Shown: positions 6,470-44,060 of the stretch, piece after piece
Layout: every line of letters begins with the position of its first letter
Numbering within the stretch: position 1 is the first letter of the stretch
Source of the DNA: Symbiodinium sp. CCMP2592
Taxonomy: Eukaryota > Sar > Dinophyceae > Suessiales > Symbiodiniaceae
NCBI GenBank assembly: GCA_905221615.1
Contig: CAJNDT010006013.1
Span: forward strand, 1,330,915-1,394,914
Length of the DNA: 64,000 nucleotides
Reading direction: 5' to 3'
Position numbers and translations under genes: made by a program
Notes under the pieces: model-generated
Told to the model about the DNA's origin: nothing
The model's input: only the letters and a program-made list of their open reading frames with translations
Databases searched by the model: none

Positions 6470-6503
<34 letters not shown>

Positions 6504-24108: not shown

Positions 24109-27100
24109 GTTCAGCACGGTTGCCATTTGCCAATCTGATTTTCAGCTTGATTTTCAGCTTGATTTTAGGTGCGTGCTTCTCATCTTTCAGTGTTTTGCGG
24201 ATGGAGCCGAACATGAACCATGAGCATGATTTTCACGGCGTGCTATCAACGGGTGCTGCAGCGCCCTTGAACCCGCATGCACCGGAGTTCGTGCCTGCCA
24301 CGTCGCAACCTCAGAGAGTTCATGCTTTGCACCCTGAAGCAGAGGTAGGAGTAGGAGCTGCAGTTGTCGCATTCAGTGCGCCTGAGCTTGTGAATGCACC
24401 TGCTTCTTCTTGCGCATTATAAGAAACACATTCAGCTCGCATGCTCCTGTCTTTGTACCACAATCCCTTGCTGAACATAACCCAAATCCTGCCCAAGCGA
24501 GCCCAGCCGAACTACTGGAAACAATGAGCACACGAACCAGCCCCGGTCCCAAGTCCGGGGGCAAGCTTTGTACTTCCAACATTGCAACATCATCCGAGCT
24601 TGCAGACGCGAGGGTTGGGCTGTTGGCCGACAGCCCTGAAGCCACACAGGTTTCCATTGCAGCTTCTTCGGAGGCGAACCTAGGTCGAGATACCCCAAAA
24701 ATACCGCATCGGAAAAAGAAGCTACGGAAGGCCGTCCTCGAGGCGAGCCACACAGCGATCACGATTTACAAAGGTGCTCCTCACACAGCTCGTAGTTTGC
24801 AGTCACATCGCATGCCCATTCCCGCCTCCCCCCCCCCTTGCCCCTCCCCCCCGAGAACCGAATCCAAACCGAAACCTGCACAACAAACTCGTTGCCGCTT
24901 TCTCTGCTGGAATGCCAGTGGTTTGTCTGCGCTGGTGTGGGCAGAACTGCAGCACTGGCTACGCACAGCCGATCTTGACATAGTCTGCATTCAGGAGACA
25001 TTCTGGAAAGAGGATCTTGAATGGGAGGATGCTAGATGGAGTTTTGTGCATCATGGCAGCGGCCTCAACAAGCAAGCAGGTTTGCTCATTTGTGTTGCTC
25101 GCAGCTTCGCTCCGCCTAGCTCTGTACGTCACACATCGATTGTGCCAGGTAGGCTGCAGCATGTGCGCATCACACCCAGTGAAGGCCATCAGCCACTTGA
25201 TATTCTACATATGTATCAATTTGCATGGTGCCACAGAAAACAGGACGATCGCACCGACTGGTGGCGCGACTGTATGACGCGTCGTGCACAGTACCTTCAG
25301 AAGCTCAGCGCAGCCCTGAGAGGGATCCCTAAAAGGAACGTTCTTTGCCTGCTCGGCGATGCCAACACGCAACTGCCGTCACAGCCCGGGATAGTAGGTC
25401 AAGGTATCCCCTCCACCCCTGGCCCCCAACGTGATGCTCAGGACCTCCTGGATGTGCTACAGACCTTCTCGTTGACGGCAGTCAACACTTACGGCGAGGC
25501 CCCTGGAGGCACCTTCTGCAATTCTGCCACCGCTCATGTATCGCAGATAGATTTTGTCTTCTTGCGCAGTGCACATAGTGACGGGATCAGTAAACTCACA
25601 CGGCCCCTCCAGGAGTGGCCTGTTGCACAGACCCGACAAGGCATGAATCACATACCACTCCAGGGTAGCATGCAGCTTCGCTGGTGCCCGTGGAGTGCCA
25701 CACGCGCATCACAGGCATCACACCTGCAGCCCAGACGGATCTGGGATGATGTGCAGGCCAACCCGGCCCTCTTGGAAGAGTTTCGCCTAGAACTGTCGAG
25801 GCTGCTACCTGCAAGCCCCAGCGTTGCAGATATGGACCGATGCTTGAAGAAGGCCTGGACAAACTGTGCCCCCAACACGGCACCGATGCCACGAACACAG
25901 CAGCCACCCGATCAGGTCCCAAGCCTTTGGAGGCTACGGGCCGAGAGGACGCAGCTTTCAAGACGTGCCAGTGCATTGCATCCTCTGCCACCGGCTCGGC
26001 TGATATGGCAATTATGGAGCACTACTGCAAAGATACTTCGTATGGAACGAGAGGTCGCACAACAAAAGCGAGCAAAGCGTCGCAGTTTCCTTTTGGAACA
26101 GACGGACATTGCTGAGAAGGCCGCGCAGCAGGGTCGCATCACAACGGTTTATCGGGTTGTTAGGACTCTTGCCCCTAAGCAGCCCAAACCCAGGTTACAG
26201 ATACGTGACTCGGCAGGTCATCTCCAGGGTCCCGCAGCCGAATGCCGGTCACTCTTAGCTCACTTTCGGGAGACATACCAAGCACCGCTTGCACAACCCT
26301 CGCGTGCATCACCCTGCCAGGTCTCACTGAGACTGCTCGATTCAGAATCCTGTGTTACGGCCTTGGCTACCCTCCCTGCACTCAAGGCGGTACACCCCAC
26401 TGCCGCCCCAGGTGCCCTTTGGAAGTACGGAGCCGCGATTCTGGGCGCTCCTCTGAGTGACTGCCTGAACCAAGCCTTCGCATTGCTTCCGCGAACGCTG
26501 CCTTTGGAGATCCGCCAGGTTGCGTTGTTCTTGATGCCCAAACCGGGCAAGAAGGCCCAACAACCGGGTGATGTTAGACCTATCAGCTTGCTACACCCGG
26601 CCAACAAGGCCCATGCCCGTGTGCTCACACATCAGCTCGGCACTTATCTTCAGCAGTATGTCTGGGACATACCGCAATTCGCATACTGTCAAGGTCGCTC
26701 CACTACGGAGGCTTTGCATCGAGTTGCTTCGCATTTTCACGCATGCCGTGCTAGAGCACCGGCTCGGGCCACCATGGTCCAAAGACGTCGAGATGGAGTC
26801 TCTCGAGCGCCATGCGTCGGGGGCCTCACATTCTCCCTAGACATTGCTCAAGCATTTGATGCTCTCCCCAGGTGGGTGATTCTGGCTGGACTTCGGGAGG
26901 CTCAGGTACCCCAATCTCTGATTGATCATATCTTGGGGATACACGCACAAATCCTGATAGAAATCACGCATCATGGATGCCAGGCCCAATGTGGCACTGC
27001 CCGAGGGATAAGGCAGGGATGCCCACTCAGCCCAGCGCTCTGGGCTATCGCATCTACATACGTTTTCCGCAGGATCCGTGAAAGCCTTGGTCCCAACGCC

Positions 27101-27862
27101 ACCGACATCATCACGATCTTCGCCGACGACGTGATTGCTCAATGGGACATTGCCAACGGTGCTGATCTAAAGGACTGCCTCCAGCAGCTGGCTCGACTTG
27201 TTCACATCTTGCGTGCGCATGGTTTGCAAGTTAGTGCGCAAAAGAGTGTCATTCTTTATCAGCTTCACGGCCCGCTAGCTCAACGGATCCTCGGACCCAT
27301 CCGCTTCAAGGACAAGGGGGTTGCACACCTTCGTGTGGATACTGAGCTTGCCTTCCCTGTCGTGCGGCAGCACAAATACCTTGGCATCATGCTCAGTTAC
27401 TCTGCATTTGAGCGTCATTCCGTCGACTATCGTTGTCGTCGAGCCGGCACTGTGTTTTCCAGGTTGCGCCCGGTACTCAGAGCTCGACACCTTCTCAGCC
27501 AGAAGACTCGCATCAGGCTCTGGTTTGCAATTGTGTGGCCATCGCTCAAATACGGCATCACCTCATTGCAGCTTGAACCGACGGAGGTCCAGAAAATTGT
27601 CGGAGTTGCCGCGCGACACCTTCGCATCCTTACACATCAGCTAGGCCATGAAACACACATCCCCAATCAACAGCTTTTTGCACAACTGCAATTTGACCCG
27701 ATACAGCGACTGCTAAAAGAGGCCCATGGCAATCAGGAGCGATTTCAAGCTCTCCCGGGAGAGCTGCAGCCCCAAAGGGTTGCACAATGGCATGGCTTTG
27801 TGACTGCGAGTCTTCAGGGCTCAATGCCAATGGAGGCTCACGGCTACGGCCTCTGCTCCTGA
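24105..27862 (+). pseudogene. LINE1 ORF2, part 1: hydrophobic N terminus, endonuclease and reverse transcriptase
   Basis: ATG 24,105 starts a segment with a strong hydrophobic stretch (FANLIFSLIFSLILGACFSS) that stops at TAA 24,420-24,422. The next frame is open from 24,386 (ATG 24,524) to 27,862, so one frameshift lies near 24,400. The second part has an EEP/AP endonuclease: LCWNASGL at 24,903, CIQETFW, GDANTQL at about 25,357 and IDFVFLR, MNHIPL. The RT follows: RPISLLHP at about 26,577, SLDIAQAFDALP at 26,833, GIRQGCPLSPALW at 27,005 and FADDV at 27,120 (catalytic Asp pair). It stops after the RT thumb, whereas in LINE2 the zinc fingers continue in frame. RT, endonuclease and finger order all fit a functional-family LINE; this copy has probably decayed. 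Confidence 0.85.
24541..24560 (+). promoter_or_regulatory. Conserved LINE hairpin, LINE1 copy
   Basis: CCCCGG, loop TCCCAAGT, CCGGGG. Counterparts are at 31,447-31,466 (LINE2) and 60,934-60,953 (LINE3), each 355-455 nt upstream of the endonuclease domain. Confidence 0.75.
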
Positions 27863-28812
27863 CGCAGCTGTTTCAAACCCTGATACACAGGTACCGCACA
27901 GAGCCGAACCTTGCTCCAGAGCTCACTTCTTGCAACGAGGTGCCCAGGCTCACACAGTACAGCAGACTGTACACCTTCAAGAGATCACCTTGGTTGAAAA
28001 GCCGAGGCACGCATGCCCGGAATGCGGCATCACCTTTGCCACCTCAGGTGTCTTACATACCCATCGTGTGAAACAACATGGTGTTGTGGCTCGTGCCACT
28101 TTGCGCGCGGAGGCCAGGATGAACAACCAAGTGCAGCATTCTAAAGGCGGCGTGCCGACCTGCAAACATTGTCATGCTGAGTTCAATGGCTGGCGAAATT
28201 TTAATTTACATATCCTCTTGGGAAACTGCCCTGTTCTGCATACAGGCTCGGGCGCTCGGCTCCGAAACGGGAACGCTTTCTGTCACCCTTCTGCTGACGC
28301 AGTTCCGCCCTCGCCCCAAGCAGGTTCCCATCTGCTAGGACATTCGTGTCGGGATGGGGTATCGCAGCCTGAGGTCTCAGCCTCTTCATCACAGGTGACG
28401 TTGGTACCACCGGTACCACCGGTGCCTCCGGCACCGCAGGTACCGCCTTCTGAGTTTGTGCCGAAACTGGTTGACGAACCAGCTGTGGCCCATCTCACAG
28501 CTGTGCAAAAACGTGACTGGAAGGCTTTTGCTGCTGTGCCTGCCTTGCACATCCGGATGCGCAATCACTGCCCTGAATGCAATCTTTGGGCGAACGACCC
28601 CTCTAGAATCAAGGTTCATATGCGAGCCAAACACCCCGCCCTCAAGCCTCGGCTGGAGCAGACAGAGCAGGTAGCTAAAAGCGTTTCTGTAGGGCGCCCG
28701 TGCCGCTTCTGCCAACAGGACTACAACTGTGCTCCTAGTAGACACGCTGTTGGCTGCCCAGTCCTTTGGCAATCAATCTTTGCAAGCCTTGACCCGCTGC
28801 ATACAGGACCAG
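27863..28812 (+). CDS. LINE1 ORF2, part 2: C2H2 and CCHC zinc fingers
   Basis: The frame is +1 to the RT frame and is open from before 27,930 to 29,822; the finger-coding part ends near 28,790. Fingers in order: CPECGITFATSGVLHTHRVKQH; CKHCHAEFNGWRNFNLH...C; CPECNLW...HMRAKH; and CRFCQQDYN...H...CPVLW. The middle linker is Pro/Val-rich (VPPVPPVPPAPQVPP). The order matches LINE2 and LINE4, where the fingers follow the RT. They probably bind the element RNA or target DNA. The open frame beyond 28,813 overlaps the basic ORF and is likely a shadow or frameshift zone. Confidence 0.75.
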
Positions 28813-29880
28813 ATGACTCTCCCACCGACGGCAGAGCAACAAGACGAGATGGAGTGGGACATGTATCATCAGTTCATGAAAGCTTCGCCGGAGGCCAAGA
28901 AGGCACTGCTGGAGAATCGGCCGTCGGCCGTCCAGGAACAGCCTGCCAAGCACCGAAAAGGCGACAAGGGGAACAAAGGAAAGGGAAAGGGAGGAAACAA
29001 GGGCAAACCACAGTCTCAGCAGGTGGACCAAGCGGAGCTGAGTGCACTTCGTCTGATCTGCAACATGCTGATCCGCCTAGCGATCAGACACGAAGATATG
29101 TTGAAGACGCTGCAGCTGGACACATCCTTCATCATGTGGCTTCGCACCGGCCTCCCCATGGGGATCCCGGAAGGACTCTTCCAGGTTGCGGAGAAGTGGC
29201 GAGCGGACAAAGCGGTGAAGCAGCACACGACTTCCCTGCGCCAGGTTCTTTGGATGTGTGTATGGAAAGAGTTTCAACAACGCCTCCAGCCTGCTCGCCT
29301 CACCGCCGAGATCCAAAGCACCATGACCAAGCTGGGTTATCTCAAAGACGGCCGGTGGATGTTCTTGAAATGGGCACCCGAGGAGAATCGGCTCATCCCA
29401 GACACGACTCGCGAGGGCCTCACCCTAACCGATGCACTAGAGTTAGTCAACAGCATCGTGAGGCTTTCGGAAGATGTGACCATCTTGACGAAGTTTGCAC
29501 CGACCAGACCCCTCGCAGCGGAACTCAGAGGACCATCGCTGACGTTCTTGGCGTCCGTCGCCAACCGAACGAACCCATCGGACCAATTGTTCGCCAGCCT
29601 CACCTCGCTGTGCGGGAACGGCTGTTGTCAGGTTGTGGGGATGTCGATCAAACCGGAGAGGGGCAGCCTGACTATAGGGACCTCTGCACCTCAAGCGGCA
29701 GAGCCGCTTGCCTCTCAGCCACAGGGTGCCACCGGAATACCTGCAGCTGCACGCGCCTCTTTTGTTACGGAGCCCAGCCCAGTGCAGCAGCAAACCGGCG
29801 CCCGGACGGCAGTGCCGTCTGACGCAAAGTTACCGGCGCCACCCGACGCGCCACAAGAACGGCCAGATCGCCCGCTCTAG
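28813..29880 (+). CDS. LINE1 overlapping basic ORF (KGKG protein)
   Basis: The frame is open from GTG 28,729; ATG 28,813 aligns with the start of the LINE2 homologue (35,785). After an acidic start comes a basic KGDKGNKGKGKGGNKGK linker. Then a conserved globular region: LIRLAIRHEDMLKTLQLD, LRQVLWMCVWKEFQQRL, DGRWMFLKWAPEENRL, TKFAPTRPLAAELRGP and CCQVVGMSIKPE. LINE2 has the same blocks in the same order with about 30 percent identity by eye. It lies in the +1 frame relative to the finger ORF in both elements. Homology ends at about 29,685; the last 65 residues are D1 linker. No known domain is recognised. Confidence 0.7.
   Translation: MTLPPTAEQQDEMEWDMYHQFMKASPEAKKALLENRPSAVQEQPAKHRKGDKGNKGKGKGGNKGKPQSQQVDQAELSALRLICNMLIRLAIRHEDMLKTLQLDTSFIMWLRTGLPMGIPEGLFQVAEKWRADKAVKQHTTSLRQVLWMCVWKEFQQRLQPARLTAEIQSTMTKLGYLKDGRWMFLKWAPEENRLIPDTTREGLTLTDALELVNSIVRLSEDVTILTKFAPTRPLAAELRGPSLTFLASVANRTNPSDQLFASLTSLCGNGCCQVVGMSIKPERGSLTIGTSAPQAAEPLASQPQGATGIPAAARASFVTEPSPVQQQTGARTAVPSDAKLPAPPDAPQERPDRPL
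29693..29711. repeat. Hairpin at the LINE1/D1 junction
   Basis: CAAGCGGC, AGA, GCCGCTTG: a perfect 8-bp stem located where homology to LINE2 ends. Confidence 0.8.
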
Positions 29881-31159
29881 CTGGCGGAGCAACAATTCGA
29901 ACCGGCAGATGCCGATCACAGCAGCGTGCCAGCAGAGCCTGCTCAGCGAGCAGGCTCCAGACCCCCACTTTTCGTGGAGGTCTTTTGCGGCCTGGGCCGC
30001 CTTAGTAAGGCGGCCGTCGAGAAAGGTTTCTCGAACATAGCGGTGGACCACAAGTCCAAGGCCAGAGGCCTTAAGGTCTTGCAGCTAGACCTCTGCACAC
30101 AGCTTGGTCGCAACCTCTTGAAAGCAGTGCTTTCCCACGAGGACTTGAGATGGGTCCACTGGGCCCCGCCGTGCGGGACCTTTTGCAGGCCGTGGGGCAG
30201 GGCATTCGTCGAGGGGGCCACAGTGTGGTCCACCTCTTTAGAGAGCGCGTACACGACCCAGTTGAGTTCTGTGTGGGTCTCTCTGGCAGCAGAGCAATGC
30301 GCAGCGCAGCTCAAGGCAGCGCCTCTCAGCCGCAAACGTCTGAAACGCCTGCGCTTCGAGCCTGACTTCAGTGACAAAGTCACCTTAGACGGCGCTGCAG
30401 CGCAGTGCTTCAAGGGCTGGAAAACGCCCCAGAAGCTGCCACAGTCGTGGTCATGCTTTCCGAAGGGGTCCAAGCTCATCCATGGGATCGAGTCCACGCA
30501 GCGGGCCGTGATTTCCATCCCTCTGCAACCCTTGCACTGGGTGCGCAGAGCGCACCTCATCGATCACCCCGCCAGAGACATCGAGGCGGTGCCCTTAATC
30601 AAGCGCGCCATTTCGGCCGAAGTTCACCAAGACACGGTCTTCCTCGCAAAGCGGCGGACCGCAGCTTCGATGCATATCGCCAAACCCTGCACAGAGTGCA
30701 GGGCGTTGGAAGAAGCAGCGCACGTTTCGAATGATGCACAGGTTAACAGCGTTACCCTGCCGAAACAGACGGTGGCTTTAGAAAAGCTGCTGGGGGAAAT
30801 CTTCCCCGACAGCACCGTGGCCCGCCAGGTTCGGGAAGGTTTCCCACTTTTGGGGTGGATACAGCCCAGCGGGCTTTGGCCTGTGCAGATCTTGCCTCCA
30901 TCACTGGACGAGACGTCCATTCTGCAGAACTCTCACAGCATAGGCATGCGTGGCGTGCGCAGCGCGCTACGCCCCTCGGAAGACGGCGTCTCCGACCAAG
31001 TCTGGGAGAGCACCCTTGAAGAGAGCAAGCAGGGCTGGCTTTCCCTCGAAGACTTTTCCCCTTCTAGCCTGCACGAGACGATAGTATCGTCGCGTTTCGG
31101 CGTTGTGCAAAAGGGCAAGGTGCGCCCTATCGACAACTTTAAGAGCAGCTTCATTAACA
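29881..31159 (+). CDS. D1 pol, 5' half: DNA methyltransferase-like domain plus RT N terminus
   Basis: The frame is the same as the LINE1 basic ORF, separated only by TAG 29,878-29,880. Motif I-like FVEVFCGLGRLSKAA with GF...AVDH starts at about 29,965. A motif IV-like WVHWAPPCGTFCRPWG has its Cys codon at 30,172-30,174. Both resemble the SAM site and Cys loop of cytosine-C5 methyltransferases. A region with paired Cys (PCTEC) follows. The RT starts at SSRFGVVQKGKVRPIDNFKS. From memory, such methyltransferase-RT fusions exist in Symbiodiniaceae, and cytosine methyltransferases captured by retrotransposons have been published for dinoflagellates. PPCG instead of the canonical PCQ makes activity uncertain. 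The open frame beyond 31,159 (to 31,230) is LINE2 leader. Confidence 0.65.
31147..31159 (+). repeat. Target-site duplication, left copy
   Basis: AGCTTCATTAACA, identical to 39,138-39,150, flanking LINE2. Confidence 0.92.
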
Positions 31160-31195
31160 AAGCTTCTCGGCCCAAGACCGGTTGCTGTGAGTGGT

Positions 31196-31215
31196 GGGTA
31201 GCGGGGCGGGGTAGC
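31196..31215 (+). promoter_or_regulatory. Shared LINE 5' motif, LINE2 copy
   Basis: Identical to 23,761-23,780. It lies 37 nt inside the LINE2 5' boundary. Confidence 0.7.
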
Positions 31216-31238
31216 TGTAGCCTTTCGTAGGGACACGC

Positions 31239-34200
31239 ATGGACTGCAGCACTCGTTGCCGACTGTTTCCTGAGCCCACGCTGCACCTTCAGTCAGCGCG
31301 ACTACGCATGCTTTTCATTACTTTGCTTGGCTTGGTGTTTTCATTTCACAACTTTTCTTCACACAGTATTCGTATTTGCCACATGGATTTTCCGGAGAAC
31401 GCATGCAGTGCAGCAACAGCACCTTATGAGAACATGGTGATGGCCGCTCCGGTCCCAAGTCCGGAGGCTGGGGTCCCAGAAGAGTTCAGGCTTCTTGCTC
31501 AACTTCTGGATCGCAGTAGAAGCGAGGGTTGGGGTTTCCTTCGTCAGGGCCCTGAGAGCGGGATGGATATGGATCTTCAAAAGCTTCTTGCACCCGCGAA
31601 AATCGACGATCGAGGCAGTCCTTCAGGGTTCACACAGGCTAGAAAGCGCTCCTACAAGCGAGCGATTCTTCGGGCGAGGAGATGGGGATACACGCAGTAC
31701 AAAGGCACAGCGGTCGACGAAGGCGACCTCACGGGCATGTACACCAACAAAGCACAGCAAACTTGCCGTCAGCGTCACAGGTACACAGGGTCATTGACGC
31801 GATCGGAGGCCTCGCTCTCTTTGCTTTCATGGAATTGCGGGGGACTCAGTACACTGCAGGATGAGCTGCTCACTTGGCTTGCTTCCACCGATTACCAGAT
31901 AGTATGCCTACAAGAGACATGGTTTAAGAGTCACATGGACTACAGCACCAGGGGCTGGCATTGTATCAACTGCGGCGTCGGCGAGAGCGCAAAGCGGGGG
32001 CATGCAGGAGTGATGGTTTTATTGAGGGCTAGCCGATTTGATCAGCAGAGCATTCGCTTCAATTATGTGGTGGCAGGGCGACTCTTGCACGTGAAAGCCT
32101 ACGGCAAGGGCATAGGCTGGGTGGAGATAGTCAACGTCTACCAGCATGCGTGGGGACTGCACGGCGAACAGACCACCATAGAGGCCAAGAGGGCTACGCT
32201 CTGGGAGAAGATGAGACTGACGTTGGGCCAGATCCCTCAGAGCAGTGCACTTATCGTTTGTGGTGATTTCAATACCGCGCTTCAGCACCGAGCTCCATAT
32301 GTGGGTCGAGGTCTTCCGAGGCAGCAGCAGAGTTCGTCAGATGCAGAGGCTCTGGAACACATTCAGAATGATTTTGATTGCATTGCTGCCAACACTTTTC
32401 ACAGGTCCGGGTCGTACACATACATACATGAGGGATTCGCGAAAGCACGGCGCTCATTCATTGACTATGTGATGCTCCGAAGACACAAGCACCGCTCCAT
32501 CACTTCCAAAATCATCAGCGATTTTGAGGTGGGACGCTGGCGAGCAGGAGGACGGCATCTACCTGTCCATGTGGTCTTCACGCATCGACCTTACTACTCC
32601 AGTAGTCCCAGAACCCCCTGCGCAGAATGGCCGAGCTGGAAATGCAAACTACTCGCTCAACAGGTCAAGGAGCATCCCGAACTTGTGGAGCAGTTTCAGC
32701 AGCAGGTTGCGGAATCCCTAACGGCTGTCACCTCTTACGAGCCCCAGCAGCTGAATGACCTGCTGCTTGAGGCCGGCAAAAAGGTCTTCACGATCCGGAG
32801 GCCCCCGAGCTTACCTGCTCCAGCTGAGGACCCAGAACATGTCGTTACCATCAAAACCATGTGGGGACACTACAGGGAGATGCGCAAAGCTCAGCTGGAT
32901 CGCTCCGGCAGTGGGCGGGCTACGCTGCGAGGAGCCATTCAGGCTTGGCGACATTGGATGCAGTTCCATCGCATGCATCGGCAGGTACAGAAACACAGTC
33001 GTAGTTTGCGACGGCAGCGGTTCGAAAGGCTCCTGGCTGAGGCGCAGGCCCATGAACGCTCGGGTTGCAGTTCGGCGATCTTCGACTTATTGCGTAGGCA
33101 TGCACCGAAGCAAGCCCGTCGGCGTGCACAACTGCGAGATGTGAGTGGCAAGCTCATGACTCCAGCAGAAGAAGCACAGGTACTGCTCACCTTTTGGCAA
33201 AGTGTCAATGGTGGAACCAGGCCCAGTGGAGACGAGCCCACCAGCTACACGTTCCATATCACATGCGAGGAGCTCAGAGATGCTCTTCAGCGGTTGCAGG
33301 GTAACAAAGCAGCTCCCAAACATTGTGCTCCACACGTGTTCTGGAGTATGGCTTCGGAGCACATTGCAACGTTCATGAGCGAGCAGGTGTTCCATGATTG
33401 GCAGCAGGGCGGCGCTCGTGTCCCTCAGGACTGGGCTTCGGCATGGCTGGTGTTCCTAGGAAAAGCGGGCAAAATCGGGGATTCACCCGCGCATCTCAGG
33501 CCCATAGCACTGCTCGAGCCCATGGGCAAAGCGGTTGCCGGCATCTTGAAGGATCGTTTGATGCCGTTTGTACAACCCTGGACTGCACCGCAGCACCTGC
33601 ATGGCTATCTCCCACACCGTTCTCCTCTTCAGGCTCTCTGTGTGGTCTTCGCACACTGTCGCGACGTTAGGGCGGCTGCGCAGGCACAAGGTCGCTCGCT
33701 ATACGATCTACGAGCAGGACACAAGCGAGGCTCATGCGCCGGTGGTCTACAGCTCAGCATAGATTGTACACAAGCATTCGACAGAATCAGCCGCGACCTA
33801 CTGCAGCGAGCACTGGAGATGATGGAGGTTCCCGCCGATTTAATCGGCATCATCATGCAGTGGGTCCATTCAACCAAGTTCCACATAGGCGGACATCCAG
33901 ATGAAGTACAATATGGCTCCGACAAGGGCATTAGGCAGGGGTGCAAGCTCTCGCCGACTCTCTGGGTCTGCATCTCGGTATACTTGCTTAGACACTTGGA
34001 CAACACCTTGGGATTGAATTGGTGCCAACAGCACGGAGTAGGATTCGCGGACGACTTGCACTTCAGGTGGAGGTTTGAGGACGTGGCTGGCATGCAGCTG
34101 GCACTCAAACAGGCGGGCACCGTCTTGCAACTCCTTACTGCCTGCGGACTCATAATCAGCAAGGAGAAAACCGTTTGCCTGCTTAGAGCAGATGGGGTCC

Positions 34201-37200
34201 AGGCACCGAATGCAATCAAGAAGGTGGTACGCAAGACCAAACAAGGCAAGCTGCTCAAACTCGACATGAACTGGGAAATGCCGCTCAAGAAGTCGCATAT
34301 CTATCTAGGGGCCTGCATCTCCTACGAGAACTTCGAGTCACAGAACATGCAGCATCGACTTCAGGCATGCCGTGCAGCTTTCAGCCGGTTACGTACCACG
34401 CTCATGGCGCACAGGGCCCTCAACATGCACCGACGACTCCAACTGTGGAAAGCAACAGTGGTGACCTCAGCTATGTACTCACTTCTGGCCTCGGGTTTTA
34501 GTGCAAAGACGCTGGATCAGTTTCGGGTTGTGCTCACGCGGCAAGCCCGCGCCATTGCTCGCAGCCCAGTTCACTTGGACCTAGAGAACAATGATAAGTT
34601 CTGGCGGCGGATAGGCATCATTGCGCCAGTGGACATGATCCTGCAACGGCTCGAACGAGCCGTCACCGTCACCACCACCTTGAAGGCCAAACTGAGGGAA
34701 GATGATGCCAGGATATCCAGTATCATCCTTGATCACGAACAGGCCGTTCTTGCTCGGACCCGGGAGATATTGACCGAGGCCCAAAAGACCGCAGGCGACG
34801 CGGAAGACAGTCTGACACATGTGTGTCAGGAGTGCGGCGCTAAGTTTGGCACCTGGGCAGCGCTGCGTGCACACGCGGGCAAGCTTCACAGTCAGGCCCG
34901 ACGACAGGAGGCCAAAGAGCAAACACCCGACTTTGACCAGCAGCGGCACGGGAAGGACGGAATGCCCATTTGCTCGCAATGCAATCATCGCTTCCCACGG
35001 TGGGCAGACCTGCGCAAACACATTGAGGGCGGCCACTGTCAGGCAGCATCCACCATTGCGACGGAGCCAGCATCGGGCACAGATAAAGACTCGGTCATGC
35101 AAATGGTCAGGGCAGGGCAGATCGATGTGCAAAACTTGCGGGTGGAGGCCGTCACGGCTGATCTGCGAACGGAGCTCATGCAGCATTGCGCGCTTTGCAG
35201 GCAGTGGCACCACGACCACAAGTATCTTAAGAGACATTGGCAGCGCTCACACACAGAAGAATGGGAGACACATTCAGCTCCTACATTTCAGTGGCGCAGG
35301 CAGCATATCGACAAAATCAAGGTGATGTGTGAGTGGTGTGGAGCGCAGGTCCCGAGCAAAGCGGAGCACAGGGATACATGTCCAGTCTTGTTTCAGCTCT
35401 CCATGATCAGGTCCATCCACGTGAGCAACGAGCACAATGTACCCAGCCAAGCCAGTGCGCCTGACATTCCTTTTCCTGCAGAGGCAGAAATCAAAAGATG
35501 GCACGGAGCTTGTCAGTTGTGTGGGCTTACATGTACATCACGGTCTTTGCAGAAACACTTTGAGACGGTGCATGCTGAGTCCTGGAGCATGTTGGGGCCA
35601 CGGGTCAAACAGCTGTGTAGTCAGTGGACAAGTGGTCTGGGCAGTAAATGTCAATTCTGTCTAGGTGGCTACGGCAAGAAGGTCAAACATGCCAACAGCT
35701 GCTCTGAACTCCTACAGAATGCGTTGTACAGTGTAAACCGGCATCGACAAACACACGACGCTGGAGCCACATTGCCCGACCATCATGACGGAGGAGTTGG
35801 CCACGGCGGCCATGCAGTTCCAGGAAGTGTTCGGTCCGGTGTTGGGGAAGCGGTTGCTGCAGGAGGAGCCGAAGGAACAGGACAGACCGAGCAAGCAGAA
35901 CAAACCGGCCAACAGGGGACCCAAAGGCAAAGGAAAGGGCAAAGGAGGGGGAAAGCAGTTCCGAAAGCCGCAGCACCAGCCCAGCAGCTGGAACAGTGGA
36001 TACAGCGGGGACATGGACTGGCTCGTGGACGCCATCCAACTGATGGCCAGAATGATGGTGAGACAGGAGGATGTCCTGCACGTCCTCAGGCAGTCGACCG
36101 GGTGGGTGTGGTGGCTAAGCATCTCCACACCAACCATAGTACCGGATCTTTTCCAGGCGGCGCAGGTGTGGCGGAAGGAGGTGTCCCAACCCGACAGCAA
36201 GATGGCCAACACCAGTCTCCGATCGGCGCTCTTCTGGTGTCTGCTGCACCAGCTGGCAGCGACACTGGGGAGCATGGACCAGACGAAACTGGCGGAGGCG
36301 AACAAACAAGGCTGGCTCACGGCGGAGGGCAGATGGGTCTACCAAACATGGTCGGCAGAAAATCAGCAGCTCATGGTGGACGAAACAAAGCCGGGCATGA
36401 CCACTCAGGAAGTCGTCCATCTACTGAACGACATGCAGGGCTTGGTGAGCGGCGACACAGTATCGCGCTTTCACTCAACGAGGCCACTAGTGGAACAGAT
36501 GTCGGGGCACATGCTCACCATGGTTATGGACATATCGTTCCGCAAAGCCTCAGCGAATGCGTTATACAGCAAACTGGAGAAACTTCAGGGAAGTGCGGCG
36601 CTACAGGTGTGCGGAGTTCAGTATCGCAAGGAAGGCTTCAAGCGCTCGCCGGGAGCGCAGAGGTTGCTGGAGCTCGTGGCCTAGGCCTAGTCCGAACCCT
36701 GGTTTTACGGAATCCTAGCAACTATTGCTACATCAACACTGCGGTTCGAGGTCTACTCTGGTCGCTTGTCTCGCTCGGGCAGTGGGCGACAGTCTTCACG
36801 AGGACCGGAAAAGAAGCACTTAGCCTCATCCTGAACCATCAGCAGCGGTCCCTCTTGATCATTGGCATTCCTATGTGGAGGCTGCTGCTACACGACTGGG
36901 GGAACCCACATATGCAACACGATGCGTCGGAGTTCCTGTCTTTTCTGCTGTGTAAGCTAGGTGCCACACGACTCACATGCCAGTGGGAAGCTCGGACCAC
37001 CACAGACGAGCACTGCCAGGTTGTGGACAGGGGCGATTGCGTGGAAGCAATCACGCTGGATTTACCCGGGGAGGTCGGGTCCCATGCCATGCAATCGCTG
37101 CTGCATCACTGGCATGCGCAAGCACATGTTCATGCGCTGACAAATGCAGGATCACTGCTTCTCTTCAGACTAGCCAGGTATGCGACGGTGGATGGCCACA

Positions 37201-37496
37201 CAGTCAGGCGCAGCGATGTGATCACATGGTCAGAGCGACTGTACATACCGGTTTTCGATGGCCAGGGGCAGACCACGGAGGTTCATGAGTACACAGTGCA
37301 GGCCGTACTCCTACACCACGGCGCATCCTTACGCCACGGGCATTATACCCTGCTCATGCATGCTTCAGATGCGGATTTTCACAGTGATGACGGAATACAA
37401 CCACAGCAGCAGCCTAAGCCGCGGAGTCGTATACACACATCGGCGGATGTCTACATGTTCTTCTGCAGGAGGTTGGATCCTGGGGGAGAAGAGTGA
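31239..37496 (+). CDS. LINE2 ORF2 polyprotein: endonuclease, RT, zinc fingers, ubiquitin-specific protease
   Basis: 2,085 codons from ATG 31,239; ATG 31,309, just before a hydrophobic segment (LFITLLGLVFSFHNF), is also possible. EEP endonuclease, residues about 192-445: SWNCGGL, CLQETWF, GDFNTAL, RHLPVH. RT, about 700-1060: RPIALLEP, SIDCTQAFDRI, GIRQGCKLSPTLW and FADD (catalytic Asp pair). C2H2/CCHC fingers, about 1190-1490, start with CQECGAKF...H. Residues about 1515-1815 are low complexity and lie opposite the basic ORF in another frame. The last 260 residues are a peptidase C19 (USP) domain: Cys box RNPSNYCYINTAV (Cys about 1830), QHDASEFLSFLL, and His box RHGHYTLLM (His about 2035), then VYMFFCRRL. 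All USP hallmarks are present, so it may be an active deubiquitinase. The open frame is intact throughout. Confidence 0.88.
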   Translation: MDCSTRCRLFPEPTLHLQSARLRMLFITLLGLVFSFHNFSSHSIRICHMDFPENACSAATAPYENMVMAAPVPSPEAGVPEEFRLLAQLLDRSRSEGWGFLRQGPESGMDMDLQKLLAPAKIDDRGSPSGFTQARKRSYKRAILRARRWGYTQYKGTAVDEGDLTGMYTNKAQQTCRQRHRYTGSLTRSEASLSLLSWNCGGLSTLQDELLTWLASTDYQIVCLQETWFKSHMDYSTRGWHCINCGVGESAKRGHAGVMVLLRASRFDQQSIRFNYVVAGRLLHVKAYGKGIGWVEIVNVYQHAWGLHGEQTTIEAKRATLWEKMRLTLGQIPQSSALIVCGDFNTALQHRAPYVGRGLPRQQQSSSDAEALEHIQNDFDCIAANTFHRSGSYTYIHEGFAKARRSFIDYVMLRRHKHRSITSKIISDFEVGRWRAGGRHLPVHVVFTHRPYYSSSPRTPCAEWPSWKCKLLAQQVKEHPELVEQFQQQVAESLTAVTSYEPQQLNDLLLEAGKKVFTIRRPPSLPAPAEDPEHVVTIKTMWGHYREMRKAQLDRSGSGRATLRGAIQAWRHWMQFHRMHRQVQKHSRSLRRQRFERLLAEAQAHERSGCSSAIFDLLRRHAPKQARRRAQLRDVSGKLMTPAEEAQVLLTFWQSVNGGTRPSGDEPTSYTFHITCEELRDALQRLQGNKAAPKHCAPHVFWSMASEHIATFMSEQVFHDWQQGGARVPQDWASAWLVFLGKAGKIGDSPAHLRPIALLEPMGKAVAGILKDRLMPFVQPWTAPQHLHGYLPHRSPLQALCVVFAHCRDVRAAAQAQGRSLYDLRAGHKRGSCAGGLQLSIDCTQAFDRISRDLLQRALEMMEVPADLIGIIMQWVHSTKFHIGGHPDEVQYGSDKGIRQGCKLSPTLWVCISVYLLRHLDNTLGLNWCQQHGVGFADDLHFRWRFEDVAGMQLALKQAGTVLQLLTACGLIISKEKTVCLLRADGVQAPNAIKKVVRKTKQGKLLKLDMNWEMPLKKSHIYLGACISYENFESQNMQHRLQACRAAFSRLRTTLMAHRALNMHRRLQLWKATVVTSAMYSLLASGFSAKTLDQFRVVLTRQARAIARSPVHLDLENNDKFWRRIGIIAPVDMILQRLERAVTVTTTLKAKLREDDARISSIILDHEQAVLARTREILTEAQKTAGDAEDSLTHVCQECGAKFGTWAALRAHAGKLHSQARRQEAKEQTPDFDQQRHGKDGMPICSQCNHRFPRWADLRKHIEGGHCQAASTIATEPASGTDKDSVMQMVRAGQIDVQNLRVEAVTADLRTELMQHCALCRQWHHDHKYLKRHWQRSHTEEWETHSAPTFQWRRQHIDKIKVMCEWCGAQVPSKAEHRDTCPVLFQLSMIRSIHVSNEHNVPSQASAPDIPFPAEAEIKRWHGACQLCGLTCTSRSLQKHFETVHAESWSMLGPRVKQLCSQWTSGLGSKCQFCLGGYGKKVKHANSCSELLQNALYSVNRHRQTHDAGATLPDHHDGGVGHGGHAVPGSVRSGVGEAVAAGGAEGTGQTEQAEQTGQQGTQRQRKGQRRGKAVPKAAAPAQQLEQWIQRGHGLARGRHPTDGQNDGETGGCPARPQAVDRVGVVAKHLHTNHSTGSFPGGAGVAEGGVPTRQQDGQHQSPIGALLVSAAPAGSDTGEHGPDETGGGEQTRLAHGGGQMGLPNMVGRKSAAHGGRNKAGHDHSGSRPSTERHAGLGERRHSIALSLNEATSGTDVGAHAHHGYGHIVPQSLSECVIQQTGETSGKCGATGVRSSVSQGRLQALAGSAEVAGARGLGLVRTLVLRNPSNYCYINTAVRGLLWSLVSLGQWATVFTRTGKEALSLILNHQQRSLLIIGIPMWRLLLHDWGNPHMQHDASEFLSFLLCKLGATRLTCQWEARTTTDEHCQVVDRGDCVEAITLDLPGEVGSHAMQSLLHHWHAQAHVHALTNAGSLLLFRLARYATVDGHTVRRSDVITWSERLYIPVFDGQGQTTEVHEYTVQAVLLHHGASLRHGHYTLLMHASDADFHSDDGIQPQQQPKPRSRIHTSADVYMFFCRRLDPGGEE
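31447..31466 (+). promoter_or_regulatory. Conserved LINE hairpin, LINE2 copy
   Basis: CTCCGG, loop TCCCAAGT, CCGGAG. Relative to LINE1 and LINE3 one base pair is changed on both sides (C-G to T-A), and it sits in a different codon phase. Confidence 0.75.
35785..36684 (+). CDS. LINE2 overlapping basic ORF (KGKG protein)
   Basis: 299 residues from ATG 35,785, in the +1 frame and entirely inside ORF2. Layout: N-terminal 50 residues, a GPKGKGKGKGGGKQ linker, then a globular part with LMARMMVRQEDVLHVL, SLRSALFWCLLHQLA, EGRWVYQTWSAENQQ, RFHSTRPLVEQMSGH and LQVCGVQYRKEG. It is homologous to LINE1 28,813-29,685, also in the +1 frame there. The protein-like conservation is in this frame; the ORF2 reading of the same bases is Gly/His/Gln-rich. 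It may be made by internal initiation or by +1 frameshifting out of the fingers. LINE4 lacks it. No known domain. Confidence 0.72.
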   Translation: MTEELATAAMQFQEVFGPVLGKRLLQEEPKEQDRPSKQNKPANRGPKGKGKGKGGGKQFRKPQHQPSSWNSGYSGDMDWLVDAIQLMARMMVRQEDVLHVLRQSTGWVWWLSISTPTIVPDLFQAAQVWRKEVSQPDSKMANTSLRSALFWCLLHQLAATLGSMDQTKLAEANKQGWLTAEGRWVYQTWSAENQQLMVDETKPGMTTQEVVHLLNDMQGLVSGDTVSRFHSTRPLVEQMSGHMLTMVMDISFRKASANALYSKLEKLQGSAALQVCGVQYRKEGFKRSPGAQRLLELVA

Positions 37497-37798
37497 TGAT
37501 CAGGGGCGGGGCACTGCTCCATTAGGCTGCAACTTGTACAGTGTTGCAGTGGCGGGGAGCAGCTCGAGGGGTATTCTCTTTGTTTATACACACATACAGT
37601 TTCTGGCGACTGGATGCAAAACATCTGTACAGCTCGCATACCATTGTTACGCATGTTCGGTGACAAGCTGTGCCTTGCGTTGACACTGTCGCTCTTTATG
37701 CTTTCGTGCTTATATAGAGTTCTTGTGCCTGATCGCCCCAATTATTCTCGAATCACAGTTTCACGAAATTTCGGCCACATCCCTGGTGACGATGTTCC
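37497..37798 (+). other. Spacer between LINE2 ORF2 and the dioxygenase-like ORF
   Basis: About 300 nt with no conserved coding signal. It could carry the means of translating the downstream ORF, but nothing specific is seen. Confidence 0.5.
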
Positions 37799-38743
37799 AT
37801 GGCTACAGGCTGTGAAGACTCGGATGTGACCTTGCAGGTGTTGCGACTTCCTGCCCCGTGGTTTGAGACAGCACTTACGCCTGAGATGTATTATTATGAC
37901 CCTCGCCCGGACGACGACATGCCGGATGACGATGCCACCATCATTGACTCTTCTTTGCACAGCAGCTCCAGTCAATCATCTATGGCCACCGATTGTTCTT
38001 GCTGCTCTGACGGGTTTGCGATTGAGTTTGTTCTTGTGCGCACGCTGACAGATGCTTTCACTGACATGGGGGAGCGCGCCAACCAGCTGGCATACACCTG
38101 TCTGCATACAGGGTTCGTGACCTTTAGTCAATTACAGCAGCTATGCCTTCTTCTACCAGTCGATGCGAAGCCACGCAAACACATGGTGGATAGCAGTCAC
38201 TCCTACTCGCGCTGCCAGGAGTCCCGGTGCTTTACAACAGGTGCCTACATCTTCGGTGGCGAAGCGGGGATCCGAACAAGCATGCGTACTTATTTGTGGG
38301 TGACGAGGCTACTCTGCTGTATAGTTAAATCTGCTGCGGGTTCGAGGCCCTTTACAACTGTCACACTCTCGCTGAATCAGCAGTCTGGGGTACATGTGGA
38401 TGCACACAACAGCCGGACTTTTCAAAATATTGTGATTCCGGCCGGCTAGTGGGACGCTGGCGAACTTTGGGTCTCCAGTGACCGTGGCTGCATCACATTC
38501 CCAGGTACCGAGCTACTAGGCGATGTTGTGCCAGTAAGACACCCTTTTACCTTGCTGGATGCAACGCAGCCGCATGCAGTGTTTGACTGGACGGGAGAGC
38601 GGACGGTCGTCATTGGTTTTCACATACGAGATGCATGGAGACTTCAACCGGATGATCTCGCCATGCTTGCTGATGCTGGCTTCCATGTTCGGACCTGTGA
38701 GCGAGTGACTGACCCATACATGTCGGTCATCGAGGTACAGTGA
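37799..38743 (+). CDS. LINE2 3' ORF: 2OG-Fe(II) dioxygenase-like protein with in-frame TAG
   Basis: ATG 37,799, 314 codons to TGA 38,741-38,743, with one in-frame TAG at 38,447-38,449 (codon 217). N-terminal 60 residues are acidic (DPRPDDDMPDDD). A double-stranded beta-helix signature follows: HVDAHN (His 199, Asp 201), GELWV, then QPHAVFDWTGERTVVIGF (His about 259, Arg about 268). The D2 ORF (41,804-43,669) has the same elements with identical His-to-Arg spacing of nine. From memory this resembles an unannotated dinoflagellate family I associate with the TET/JBP-like fold. Substrate unknown; oxidised pyrimidines are abundant in dinoflagellate DNA, so a base-modifying role is attractive but inferred. 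The TAG means this copy is dead unless read through. Confidence 0.6.
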
Positions 38744-39128
38744 CTGCCGCTTGTAGCGCCTGTCAGTTCAGTTGTCAACCACTGCTGCTGAAGCGTGAGC
38801 TTTTCGGCACTTAGAGGGCTGCTTCACTTAGTCTGCCGCTGTTGTCTGCCGCTGTAGCCGAGTTTTTGTTTCTTACTGTAAGAGGGCTCCTGCTTGCACA
38901 AACGCACGCAAGTGTTGAAAGAGCCAACTCCTGTCGCCTCGAAGTTTTGACGAACCTTTTGTACTCTGTGTTCTAGTGTAGTGGGAACCGTGCACTTGTC
39001 GCTAGGGCATACGTGCCGGACTTGTTGAGCACTGTCTAACAGTGCTAGGGGCCAAGCGTCCACAGAGACGCCAGGTTGCGAAAACCTGTAGTGCCTGAGC
39101 TAGGCGACCTTCGAGGACGCTGCTGGTG
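38744..39128 (+). other. LINE2 3' UTR
   Basis: 385 nt without ORF, leading to the A run. No AATAAA signal is seen, as expected for dinoflagellates. Confidence 0.7.
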
Positions 39129-39137
39129 AAAAAAAAA
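39129..39137 (+). other. LINE2 poly(A) tail
   Basis: A run of ten A (39,129-39,138). The last A is shared with the target-site duplication. Confidence 0.92.
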
Positions 39138-39150
39138 AGCTTCATTAACA
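39138..39150 (+). repeat. Target-site duplication, right copy
   Basis: AGCTTCATTAACA, identical to 31,147-31,159. Confidence 0.92.
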
Positions 39151-39730
39151 GCTGCTGTGGCACTACCGAGAAGGTACAGGTCGATAGCATCGACGAGCTC
39201 CTTGCAGTGTGCCTGGAGTGGTTGCGCCAGGGTGTGCCTGCAGAGCAGGCACACCGCATCGTAGGCAGAACGTGGGACCTCAAAAGCGCCTACAAGCAGC
39301 TTGCAGTGCAGGCCTCGCGCAAAAAGTTTGCTTGCGTCGCAATGGTTGACCCACAGAGTGGGAAGGTCAAAATTGCTCACCTGCACAGCATGCCGTTCGG
39401 TGCAGTCGCGGCCGTGCATGCCTTCCTGCGCTGCAGCGAAGCGCTCAAAGCAATCGGGCGCGAGAAGCTCGCATTAGTAATGACGAGCTTTTTCGATGAC
39501 TTCACGGTCCTCACGCGCAGCGCGCACAAGAAGCTTGTAAGTTTGGCAGTGACCAACATGTTCAACAAGCTGGGCTGGCAAGTTGCCACAGAGCCCAAGA
39601 AGAACGTCGACTTCAGCGAAGTTTTCGACGTACTAGGCGTCAGGGTCGACCTCTCCAACCAGCACCTTGGAGAGATCTCTGTCAGGAATAAGCCGACCCG
39701 AGCAGCAGAGCTACCCTCTCACGAGGAAGC
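39151..39730 (+). pseudogene. D1 reverse transcriptase, C-terminal part
   Basis: It continues the RT after LINE2. Blocks: TTEKVQVDSIDELL, TWDLKSAYKQLAVQ (first catalytic Asp), HLHSMPFGAVAAVHAF and SFFDDFTVL (catalytic Asp pair), then LGWQVATEPKKN and LGVRVDLS. These match the DIRS/Ty3-like RT layout rather than a LINE RT. Near 39,710-39,735 the frame shifts: the current frame runs on to 39,818 as nonsense, while MSPLEAQSLRGRL in the next frame begins the connection to RNase H. It is broken twice, by the LINE2 insertion and by this shift. Confidence 0.75.
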
Positions 39731-40384
39731 ATGTCCCCGCTGGAAGCGCAAAGCTTGCGCGGAAGGCTCATTTTTGCTGAGCAGCAGGCCTGGGGCCGCA
39801 ACACTCGCATGGCAGTGATCTGCGTAGGTGACGTGCCGGGGGAGGGCCCCGAGCAAGTCCCTCTCTCCGAGCAGCAGTGCCAAGCCATGGCTTTTCTGCT
39901 GCAGCGCGTGGTACACGGACCGCCACGGACAGTGTCCATCCACGCACGCAGGAAAGTCCACCTGTACATCGACGGGGCCTGCGAGTGGGAGACCCCAAGA
40001 CTGGTGCCCAAGTGCGGCCTCGGTGCAGTGCTCATCGGTGAAGGTATTGCCTTTACCTGGGGGTTACAGATCAGCGCCCAGGTGGCAACCCAGTGGGTTG
40101 CCAGAACCCAGAAACAGCAGCTGGTGTACGAGTGCGAGCTCTTGCCTTGTCTGCTTAGCCTTCAGCTGTGGGCTAAGTACTTAGCAGGCAGTGACCTGTT
40201 TGTGTGGATTGACAATGAAGCAGCGCGTACGTCTTTGCACAAGGCCTTCACACGGAAGGCAGAAGGAGCTGCGATAGTTTCGCAAGCAGTTGATTTTGAA
40301 GAGTCCCTGCAGTGCAGGGCTGTACTTGTGGACTTGTCCACTGATGTTTTGCAAATGGAAAAACGGTTTCCTTTCTTTTGGTAA
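39731..40384 (+). pseudogene. D1 RNase H-like domain, truncated
   Basis: ATG 39,731, 217 codons. PLEAQSLRGRLIFAEQQAWG is the RT-RNase H connection. VHLYIDGACE (Asp), YECELLPCLLS (Glu) and FVWIDNEAARTSL (Asp) are the RNase H acidic residues in order. The final His/Asp segment of DIRS/Ty3 RNase H is missing because the ORF runs into repeat R from about 40,326 and stops at 40,384. Confidence 0.7.
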
Positions 40385-41803: not shown

Positions 41804-43669
41804 TTGTGCTCACTGCGGGAAGCCCCTTGGCCCCAACAGGTTCGCCGCGCTCACATCATTTCCGGTGCCTCTTCTGCTTCAGGCTATTTTAATTTCGGGG
41901 TTCAGCTTTCTAAGCGCTCTTCGCTCACTCAGGTTACCACCGCCCTGCCTGAGCTTTGCAGGGACCTGAATGCCCTCTTCAGGTTTCTCTTTCCAAACGA
42001 GCACTGGAACGCTTTGTGTGTCTCGCGCAATGGCCTCAGTGCGCTGCATTCCGATTCAGCGAACATTCCTGGCTCACGCAATTTGTCACTCTCGCTGGGC
42101 GCCTTCTCGGGTGGCCATCTGTGGATTGAGGACCTCTCCTGCCTCGCGCAAGGCCAGCCGATATCAGTTGCATCTGGCTCGGGCTGGCTGCATGGCTGTG
42201 CTGCTATCGACACACATCGCAAAGCCATCAGCTTCGATGGCCGCATTAGACACATGACACTTCCTTTCTCAGGAGAGCGTTGGGCCCTCACGGCCTTTTC
42301 CCTGCCTGACGTGTGTTGTGCCGAACTTGAGTTTCTGGGTTTCCCACTGCCGCCGCTGCATGCTATCACTGCCAACTTTCCTGCCGAGCTTTCAGGGGTT
42401 TTGCCCTTGGCGGAATTGTCCGTTTCTGAGGAAAAACCTGAGATTTGGCCTCCAGCAAAATTGTCGGTTTTTGAAGAAAAACCCGAGATTCCGCCCGGCC
42501 GCTTGAGAGGGGGTCCTGAGATCCGAGCAGGGATGTTGGCAGCTATCACTGCCTCACCCTCTCCCCTCTTGGGTTCTAGTCCTGCCCCTAAACCCTCAAC
42601 CTCTCCCACCTCGCCCGCGGGGCTCGAGGAAGCAGACATCACTTCATCGCGCTTTCTAGCAGGGACGCACATTCAGGAAGATGTGCCACCCAGTGGGTCA
42701 GCATCCGATGTGTCCGCAGATGTCCCTCCTGCGCAGCATCTCCCTTCAGCACAGCCAATGCCCAGGGTACCGGAGGCCGCCTCGACTACTAAGCAGCACG
42801 AGCCTCAGTCGTGCAGGGAACATGCAGTCCAATCCAAGTCGGCATCGTCTAAGCTGCCACTGGGATGCAAACTGTGGGGAAAACGCTCCACGTCAGGTTT
42901 GTTTCTCTCCCACAAGCTTAGGGTTGCACGCCCCTTGTCACCACCGGAGGGCGCTTGGCGAGCTGATACTTGCATTTCTTCCCTCCCGGCGCGTCTTTTT
43001 CTCGAGATCACATGGAGCAATCATTCGCGCCATCAGCTTAGCATGGCTGTCCGTGCTTCAGGTGGAAACTCCCTCACCCTAAGCCCCAGCCTTGACCCGA
43101 CCCTGGATGTCCTTTGCCCAGACCTCCTCGAGCAGGTCCTCTTCCTTTGCGGCTCGGGAGCTGTCGCGTATCTAGCAGCATCGCCCCTAGCCGAGTCAGC
43201 AGACTCGCCAGACGACGTGGGTTCCTCCTCGTGGCTGCTGTCGGCAATGCACGAGCAAACGGCGGCTGCAAAGGTTTCCCGTTGCACCTGGCTCCTCAGC
43301 ATTGTACACACTGCCGGGGGTCAAGGGCATTTGGAGTTGCCCCCCACTTCTTCTTACTGGTCGTCAGAGCGGCCCCAGGCCTGGTTGCATCAGGGCAACT
43401 GTGCTCTGATCTTGGTACCCCCATTGCTGCGCTCAGACTCAGCTGTTCCGGGCCAGCCCCAGCTTTGGGCTGCTTCATACCGCCCGCTTTCCGCCCTGGC
43501 GGTCAGCTCGCCCGCCTTCGCTCCCCCGCAACGCGCAAATGAACTTGCGTCTTCGTTTGCTACGATCGCTGCCCCTCTGCTCCCGAGAGGGCCGCGAGCT
43601 CTCCCTGCAGTCAGTCATCACGTCTATTCCACGCAAAGGCCTCTTCGCAGGCCCACATGCACTTCATGA
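41804..43669 (+). pseudogene. D2 dioxygenase-like plus methyltransferase-like polyprotein segment
   Basis: 621 codons open (TTG start; no clear Met). Residues about 30-165 are 2OG-Fe(II) dioxygenase-like: LHSDSANIPGS (His 82, Asp 84), LGAFSGGHLWIED, IRHMTLPFSGERWAL (His 150, Arg 159). The spacing matches the LINE2 3' ORF. A disordered linker with duplicated EEKPEI units follows. The C-terminal third reads FLEITWSNHSRHQLSMAV, DLLEQVLFLCGSGAVAYLAA and GHLELPPTSSYW. From memory these align with the methyltransferase-like module of Symbiodiniaceae retroelements, but the catalytic PPC is replaced by SPL, so it is probably inactive. Confidence 0.6.
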
Positions 43670-44060
43670 TGGAGCTGGAAAACGCTCCATTGCCGATTGG
43701 AGCAGCCCTGCAAGCCATGATGCATTTCGGGGATTACGCAAAGCCCTGCTGCAATTCTGCATCTCAGCTCGAGCCGACAAACGCTTGCTTGCTCGCGGCT
43801 CCTGCCCGTCGACTGAACCGCTTTTCAGCTCTTCCGAAGTGTCCGCAGCCAGGGATCTGGTGTTTCCTTCGCTGGGTATGCAGACCCCGGACAACGCTTG
43901 GTATGTGCATCCATACCAACCCATGTGCTTGCACGCGTTTGAAGCCCTGGCACAACATTGTGGCGATCAGGACATTCATTTGTTTCCGCATTTGCGTATG
44001 GGTGTGCCGACCGGGTACTTAACTGTTTCTGGCCTCCCAAAGGCCAATCAGGGGAGCTGA
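43670..44060 (+). pseudogene. D2 linker to RT
   Basis: The frame open from TTG 43,539 gives WYVHPYQPMCLHAFEALA and GVPTGY, the spacer that usually precedes the RT in D-type elements by memory. It then shifts to the 43,958 frame near 44,010. Confidence 0.45.

Follow-up and report, generated by a model that had tools for sequence, protein, structure and literature searches.

A Symbiodinium LINE with a ubiquitin-specific protease and a TET-like oxygenase gene inserted in the reverse transcriptase gene of another retroelement

We analysed a 64,000-nucleotide stretch of the Symbiodinium sp. CCMP2592 genome (contig CAJNDT010006013.1; hereafter the window), which contains a long interspersed nuclear element (LINE) with a ubiquitin-specific protease (USP) domain and a TET-like 2-oxoglutarate-Fe(II) oxygenase gene. 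The insertion covers positions 31160-39137 (7978 bp; this and all features below are on the plus strand unless stated otherwise). It is delimited by a 13-bp target-site duplication (TSD), AGCTTCATTAACA, with copies at 31147-31159 and 39138-39150, and by a poly(A) tail at 39129-39137 that directly follows the conserved 3' end GGACGCTGCTGGTG. Such flanking duplications had a mean of 0.00 in 100 shuffles of the window. The initial annotation had correctly proposed both a TSD and a poly(A) tail, and had ended the element at 38743; its true end is at 39137. On either side lie the halves of an open reading frame (ORF) of another retroelement: a 5' half at 29926-31159, ending ...KVRPIDNFKSSFIN at the insertion site, and a 3' half at 39138-39818 with a reverse transcriptase (RT) domain (RVT_1 E=3.1e-6; 27.5 bits, slightly under the cut-off of 29.6). 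The joined flanks form one open frame of 633 codons plus a terminal stop, reading ...KVRPIDNFKSSFIN/SCCGTTEK... across the junction, and the LINE therefore interrupts a frame. An assignment of the 5' half as a methyltransferase, prompted by apparent motifs, was dropped, as Pfam finds nothing there.

A polyprotein frame of 2085 amino acids (aa; 31239-37496) encodes, in order, an APE-type endonuclease (EN) domain (Exo_endo_phos; 31824-32507; PF03372 E=1.2e-13), an RT domain (RVT_1; 33486-34184; PF00078 E=5.7e-17), four C2H2-type zinc fingers (34824-35573), a linker and the USP. The EN and RT matches both exceed their cut-offs within one protein, and a pattern scan finds QET, GDFN and FADD motifs, the last at residue 936. 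The fingers were likewise identified by pattern scan, with sub-threshold Pfam zf-C2H2 matches. Six PDB sequences match the EN-RT part, four of them LINE-1 ORF2p. Together with the TSD, the 3' poly(A) tail and the existence of 5'-truncated copies (L026, L027, L029 and L033), these features identify an APE-type LINE. Its polyprotein ATG lies only 79 bp from the element start, with no ORF1 upstream.

To place the element in its family, we drew on relatives from a search of the 1.1-Gb genome. Sixteen USP loci were hand-picked from 148 matches to the Pfam UCH profile, mostly for long open frames. Thirty oxygenase loci were also fetched, which represent 27 distinct places because L031/L039, L034/L037 and L035/L038 are the same places.

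The oxygenase had been described in the initial annotation as a dioxygenase ORF at 37799-38743 with HxD...H...R spacing. The gene proved real in the family, where this motif is invariant in 15/15 aligned oxygenases. The window copy, however, is split by an in-frame TAG (38447-38449) into a 216-aa 5' piece (37799-38449) and a 3' piece (38450-38743). It is broken, since the stop precedes and cuts off the distal His (residue 259) and Arg (residue 268); three copies 98-99% identical to it have no stop. The window sequence matches the Pfam Tet_JBP profile only below threshold (E 0.13 and 0.067; 11.9-12.9 bits, and 16.1 bits for the relative P0004, against a gathering score of 34.9). Eight of the 15 members match Tet_JBP at E<=1, the best at 8.1e-5 with a bit score that, judging from the others, is well under 34.9. 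Because no member is shown to reach the cut-off, we call the enzyme TET-like rather than TET/JBP, a designation that rests only on the predicted fold, the catalytic residues and the sub-threshold profile matches. Searches of PDB sequences with the oxygenase profile gave no match at E<=1, and no relatives were confirmed among 17 pattern matches in viral contigs or 220 in prokaryote genomes. Two database relatives, 84 and 91% identical, are both from Symbiodinium sp. CCMP2592.

The enzyme might instead act on RNA, serve as an AlkB/ALKBH5-type demethylase or hydroxylate protein, and not be a TET/JBP-type DNA base oxidase. We regard this as a possible but clearly less probable assignment: Tet_JBP is the only Pfam family matched by any of the 15 members, and TET2 and NgTET1 head the list of structures aligned to the predicted fold of one relative. 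A second, very different oxygenase-like domain occurs in the window at 41882-42304 (domain E=7e-11 in a search of the locus ORFs with the oxygenase hidden Markov model). It belongs to a region spanning 41804-43669 and 43958-45798, where it lies upstream of ORFs that by impression resemble a DIRS-like RT; the one of the two ORFs that was scanned has no Pfam match.

Between the fingers and the USP, a conserved 299-aa ORF that we term MID (35785-36684) overlaps the polyprotein frame in the +1 frame. Across nine copies, MID translations match in 36/36 pairs (E<=3e-8), whereas translating the same stretch in the polyprotein frame gives a match (E<0.01) for only one pair, L010-L014. We therefore ruled out the whole 2085-aa frame as one conserved protein: by these comparisons, the approximately 300 codons at 35785-36684 are a linker not conserved as protein, and it is the +1 frame that encodes the conserved protein of this stretch. 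The polyprotein frame is nonetheless stop-free across MID in all ten copies whose MID is intact, although 4.5-8.8 stops would be expected in each under synonymous re-coding (probability of none 0 to 0.006 in each). Among these ten, L023 and L024 are near copies, and L020 was left out of the stop test, its MID match holding stops and lying behind the USP. The simplest reading of these sequences is an RT-linker-USP polyprotein with a MID gene nested in another frame, an arrangement of genes that would be unusual in a LINE. Since the element has no upstream ORF1 and MID contains a KGKGKGGG stretch, MID may be its ORF1-like partner; a structure model of MID (pLDDT 39.8) was unusable.

Alternatively, MID might not be a separate overlapping gene at all: programmed frameshifting, first +1 and then -1, could make it an internal part of a single polyprotein. 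Its place directly between fingers and USP, and its +1 frame in 10/10 intact copies, are in keeping with such a mechanism. We nevertheless think it rather improbable, because double shifting would not require a linker frame held free of stops, and because MID in the window starts with its own ATG at 35785.

The USP (peptidase C19) domain at 36681-37493 forms the polyprotein C-terminus, as the initial annotation had claimed, and matches the Pfam UCH profile (PF00443) at E=2e-9, with 37.9 bits against a cut-off of 23.9. All 16 aligned family USPs match this profile at E<=0.1, and Cys16, Gln79, Asp81 and His221 are invariant among them; the catalytic Asp/Asn is present as judged by eye in the alignment. 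Apart from L028 (100%) and L030 (89%), these USPs are 21-54% identical to that of the window, the catalytic residues being kept down to 21% identity. A family USP profile matches 112 PDB sequences, of which the best 60 are all USPs, with USP12, USP46 and USP7 at the top. Judged on sequence, the protease is firmly identified as a genuine ubiquitin-specific protease, and one that is old within the LINE family. We consider it unlikely that it is instead the polyprotein's own processing protease, comparable to viral or Ulp1-type cysteine proteases, and not a deubiquitinase acting on ubiquitin. Its position at the end of a very long polyprotein and the Ulp1-like proteases of Utopia/NeSL LINEs lend that idea some weight, but its sequence matches are USPs.

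Ratios of nonsynonymous to synonymous substitution (dN/dS, NG86) in the USP are 0.18 for window-L030 and 0.11 for L041-L043, 0.15 for window-L036 (at a dS of 2.5, near saturation) and 0.08 for window-L028 (from five substitutions). The nearly identical pair L023-L024 gave a higher value, 0.37, and dS could not be estimated for window-L019. Most of the pairs measured show purifying selection, on the oxygenase as well as on the USP. A tree built from 22 USPs of this genome splits 14 LINE-type rows from three Helitron-labelled rows with 100/100 support, with five rows in no group and L018 labelled Helitron only because it is nearly identical to L021. The branch between the two groups is long and one other row very long, and the tree does not prove a single capture. 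The Helitron-labelled proteins in L009 (5378-10000) and L021 (6050-9901) combine an N-terminal UCH/USP domain with Helitron_like_N (over the cut-off in L009, under it in L021); a rolling-circle element has apparently captured a USP separately. In a collection of 5.8 billion proteins, searches with the USP alone and with the USP region of the polyprotein both gave nothing at E<=1e-3, which is no proof of rarity; these searches need shared 5-residue words, and the USP-alone search skips long polyproteins. Patterns of the window USP were absent from viral contigs.

The initial annotation also assigned both enzymes to the element, and their arrangement elsewhere in the genome supports this. Of the 16 USP loci, ten have LINE EN-RT sequences upstream of the protease (L010, L011 together with the end of the window, L013-L016, L019, L020, L023 and L024), a count that is not a rate because the loci were hand-picked, mostly for long open frames. 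MID lies between EN-RT and USP in nine of these ten, and behind the USP in L020. The remaining six comprise L009 and L021, with Helitron domains (under the cut-off in L021), L018, with UCH, no LINE parts and a USP nearly the same as that of L021, the unclassified L017 and L022, and the unresolved L012. From the other side, a USP lies just upstream of the oxygenase in 13 of the 27 distinct oxygenase places, and this order is common to families as divergent as L019, L036, L041 and L053, in which the oxygenase shares only 32-52% identity with that of the window. Yet among the ten USP-LINE loci only L019 shows a downstream oxygenase, L016 ending too early to tell. Four oxygenase places are 5'-truncated copies (L027, L029, L033 and L051), and L044 is unresolved. 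L040 and L045 have MID and oxygenase with no USP detected, and the two enzymes may therefore be gained or lost independently. In the remaining seven (L046-L050, L052 and L054), which are near-identical and have no USP in the locus, the oxygenase lies behind another RT gene, with RVT_1 matched at E=5e-6, under the cut-off. Judging from their motifs, these elements are possibly Penelope-like; the L047 RT gave no match at E<=0.1 among PDB sequences. A chance enclosure of the two enzymes in the insertion, as host genes or parts of other elements carried without function, is very improbable: USPs also occur in Helitron-type proteins, oxygenase relatives stand beside other RT genes and the window's oxygenase is broken, but both enzymes lie between the TSDs, their order is kept between such divergent families and most pairs show purifying selection.

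The window holds further related sequences. LINE1 (24410-29877) has EN-RT, fingers in another frame and MID, and breaks off abruptly at the start of the target gene ORF; no USP was seen in it, though its 53%-identical relative L016 has one. Another EN-RT-fingers-MID-USP LINE crosses the right window edge (60917-64000, continuing into L011 1-2937), and USP remnants lie on the minus strand at 55873-55387. At the left end (region 123-9229), ORFs 247-249 aa long are found on the minus strand at 123, 3420, 5215 and 8486, suggesting a repeated unit.

The insertion site itself recurs, a feature that the initial annotation had not noted, as it had not noted MID. Three copies, L026, L029 and L033, have TSDs of 12-15 bp at precisely the site of the window element and are each truncated differently at the 5' end; L019 occupies the corresponding position (...KVRIIDDMSETLVN) in a target gene 29-37% identical in protein. 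L036, L051, L024, L030 and L034 also run on into RT sequence, with LVN, SVN, SFIN or SLAN at the junction, and L023 (494-9896) holds two LINE copies in tandem with TGGGGTCAAC between them, which looks like a target-site remnant. Genome-wide, the exact 3' end GGACGCTGCTKGTGAAAAA occurs at 15 places (0 in a reversed control), and CTTN{3,4}AAY follows within 14 bases at ten of them (control 0), against a roughly estimated chance of 1.5% for each 3' end. L034 and L035 (C5017 and C216) do not differ in their flanks, and one may be a duplicate of the other; if the two are taken as a single place, the count becomes 9/14. An RT match lies behind the junction in nine of the ten on-motif places, the tenth, C5244, not having been read further. 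Peptides after the junction were read in ten loci; that of L034 soon meets a stop, and its RT match begins further on. The off-motif 3' ends are those of L028, L032, two places that were not read, and L027, which is flanked by a 13-bp TSD of its own at a different sequence. Most copies with the exact 3' end are thus placed, by sequence, at one conserved codon pair in the RT genes of other retroelements, which we take to be RT motif 1, R.(I)DD...(I/V/A)N. Such independent insertions at one target position are the mark of a site-specific LINE. Searches with a profile of the target gave no match downstream of the USP-LINEs L010, L011, L013-L015 and L020 or of the oxygenase in loci L040-L050 and L052-L054, and the site preference therefore belongs to part of the superfamily. 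R1/R2-type LINEs similarly insert again and again, by target-primed reverse transcription, at one site of a repeated gene and leave 5'-truncated copies. Unlike theirs, the target of the window family is a set of codons within protein-coding genes of mobile retroelements, and these genes are only about 29-37% identical in protein.

Precedents for the separate parts of this element are DNMT-carrying Symbiodinium retrotransposons, Ulp1-bearing Utopia/NeSL elements and TET-carrying fungal DNA transposons. In the available text of PMC5890265, SymbioLINE-Dnmt and SymbioDIRS-Dnmt3 are likewise Symbiodinium retrotransposons with a captured epigenetic enzyme gene, and the former is a LINE with Exo_endo_phos, RVT_1 and TSDs. 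They carry cytosine methyltransferases, whereas the window element carries a USP and an oxygenase, with no DNMT profile match in its five scanned pieces. SymbioLINE-Dnmt also differs in having no poly(A) tail and in placing its DNMT-encoding ORF upstream of the RT ORF, where the window element has only the 79 bp before its polyprotein. The words "ubiquitin", "TET" and "dioxygenase" do not occur as whole words in the main text of that paper as available. Utopia/NeSL elements, as far as described in the available text of PMC4640811, resemble the window element as LINEs with a ubiquitin/SUMO-field cysteine protease, zinc fingers and target specificity. Their Ulp1-like domain is N-terminal (in one nematode Utopia and in NeSL families) and their endonuclease restriction-like, in contrast to the C-terminal USP and APE endonuclease here, and Utopia targets the U2 snRNA gene rather than the RT gene of another retroelement. 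In our Pfam scans of the window element UCH was the only peptidase profile found, with no Ulp1-like (C48) domain. Fungal TET/JBP carriers are similarly mobile elements with a TET-type oxygenase, thought to escape methylation-based silencing; according to the available text of PMC12730594, a 2025 survey, they are DNA transposons only, and no retrotransposon with a TET/JBP gene was found, whereas the window element is a LINE. We found no USP- or TET-bearing LINE in the open-licence full text searched, an absence that is no proof. As far as these searches show, no LINE with a conserved USP and TET-like oxygenase would have been described before.

On balance, we lean towards reading the insertion as a full-length copy of an APE-type, site-directed LINE whose proteins would act as follows. 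Copies inserted by target-primed reverse transcription, the hallmarks of which are seen in the sequence; endonuclease and fingers would choose the site by recognising RT codons. MID would supply the missing ORF1-like, RNA-binding partner. The USP may strip ubiquitin from the element's own RT or ribonucleoprotein, or from proteins at the target site, and so shield retrotransposition from degradation. The oxygenase may oxidise a base (5-methylcytosine, 5mC, or thymine to 5-hydroxymethyluracil, hmU) and counter silencing of the element or its target. The roles suggested in the initial annotation, release of proteins from ubiquitin and base modification at the insertion site, would fit this picture, although the oxygenase of the window copy is broken. 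Such an eraser or thymine hydroxylase would have substrates, because in the available texts the Symbiodinium genome, home to the DNMT-carrying LINE and DIRS elements, is reported to have homogeneous CG methylation throughout (PMC5890265), and most repeats in Breviolum, apart from some LINEs, are reported to be enriched for 5-hmU (PMC11071213).

More tentatively, and as a possibility we rate well below the previous reading, the LINE lineage may prey on other retroelements, its endonuclease and fingers recognising the DNA that encodes the conserved (I/V/A)-N codons of RT motif 1, and its TET-like eraser and deubiquitinase disarming methylation and ubiquitin defences. If so, each on-target copy would interrupt a competitor's RT gene, and, together with the published DNMT-carrying retrotransposons, Symbiodinium genomes would contain retroelements that carry writers next to others that carry erasers. 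By inserting into conserved RT codons, the lineage would use other selfish elements as an unusual safe harbour, and the element opens to experiment the question of how retroelements in the dinoflagellate nucleus deal with 5mC/hmU and ubiquitin.

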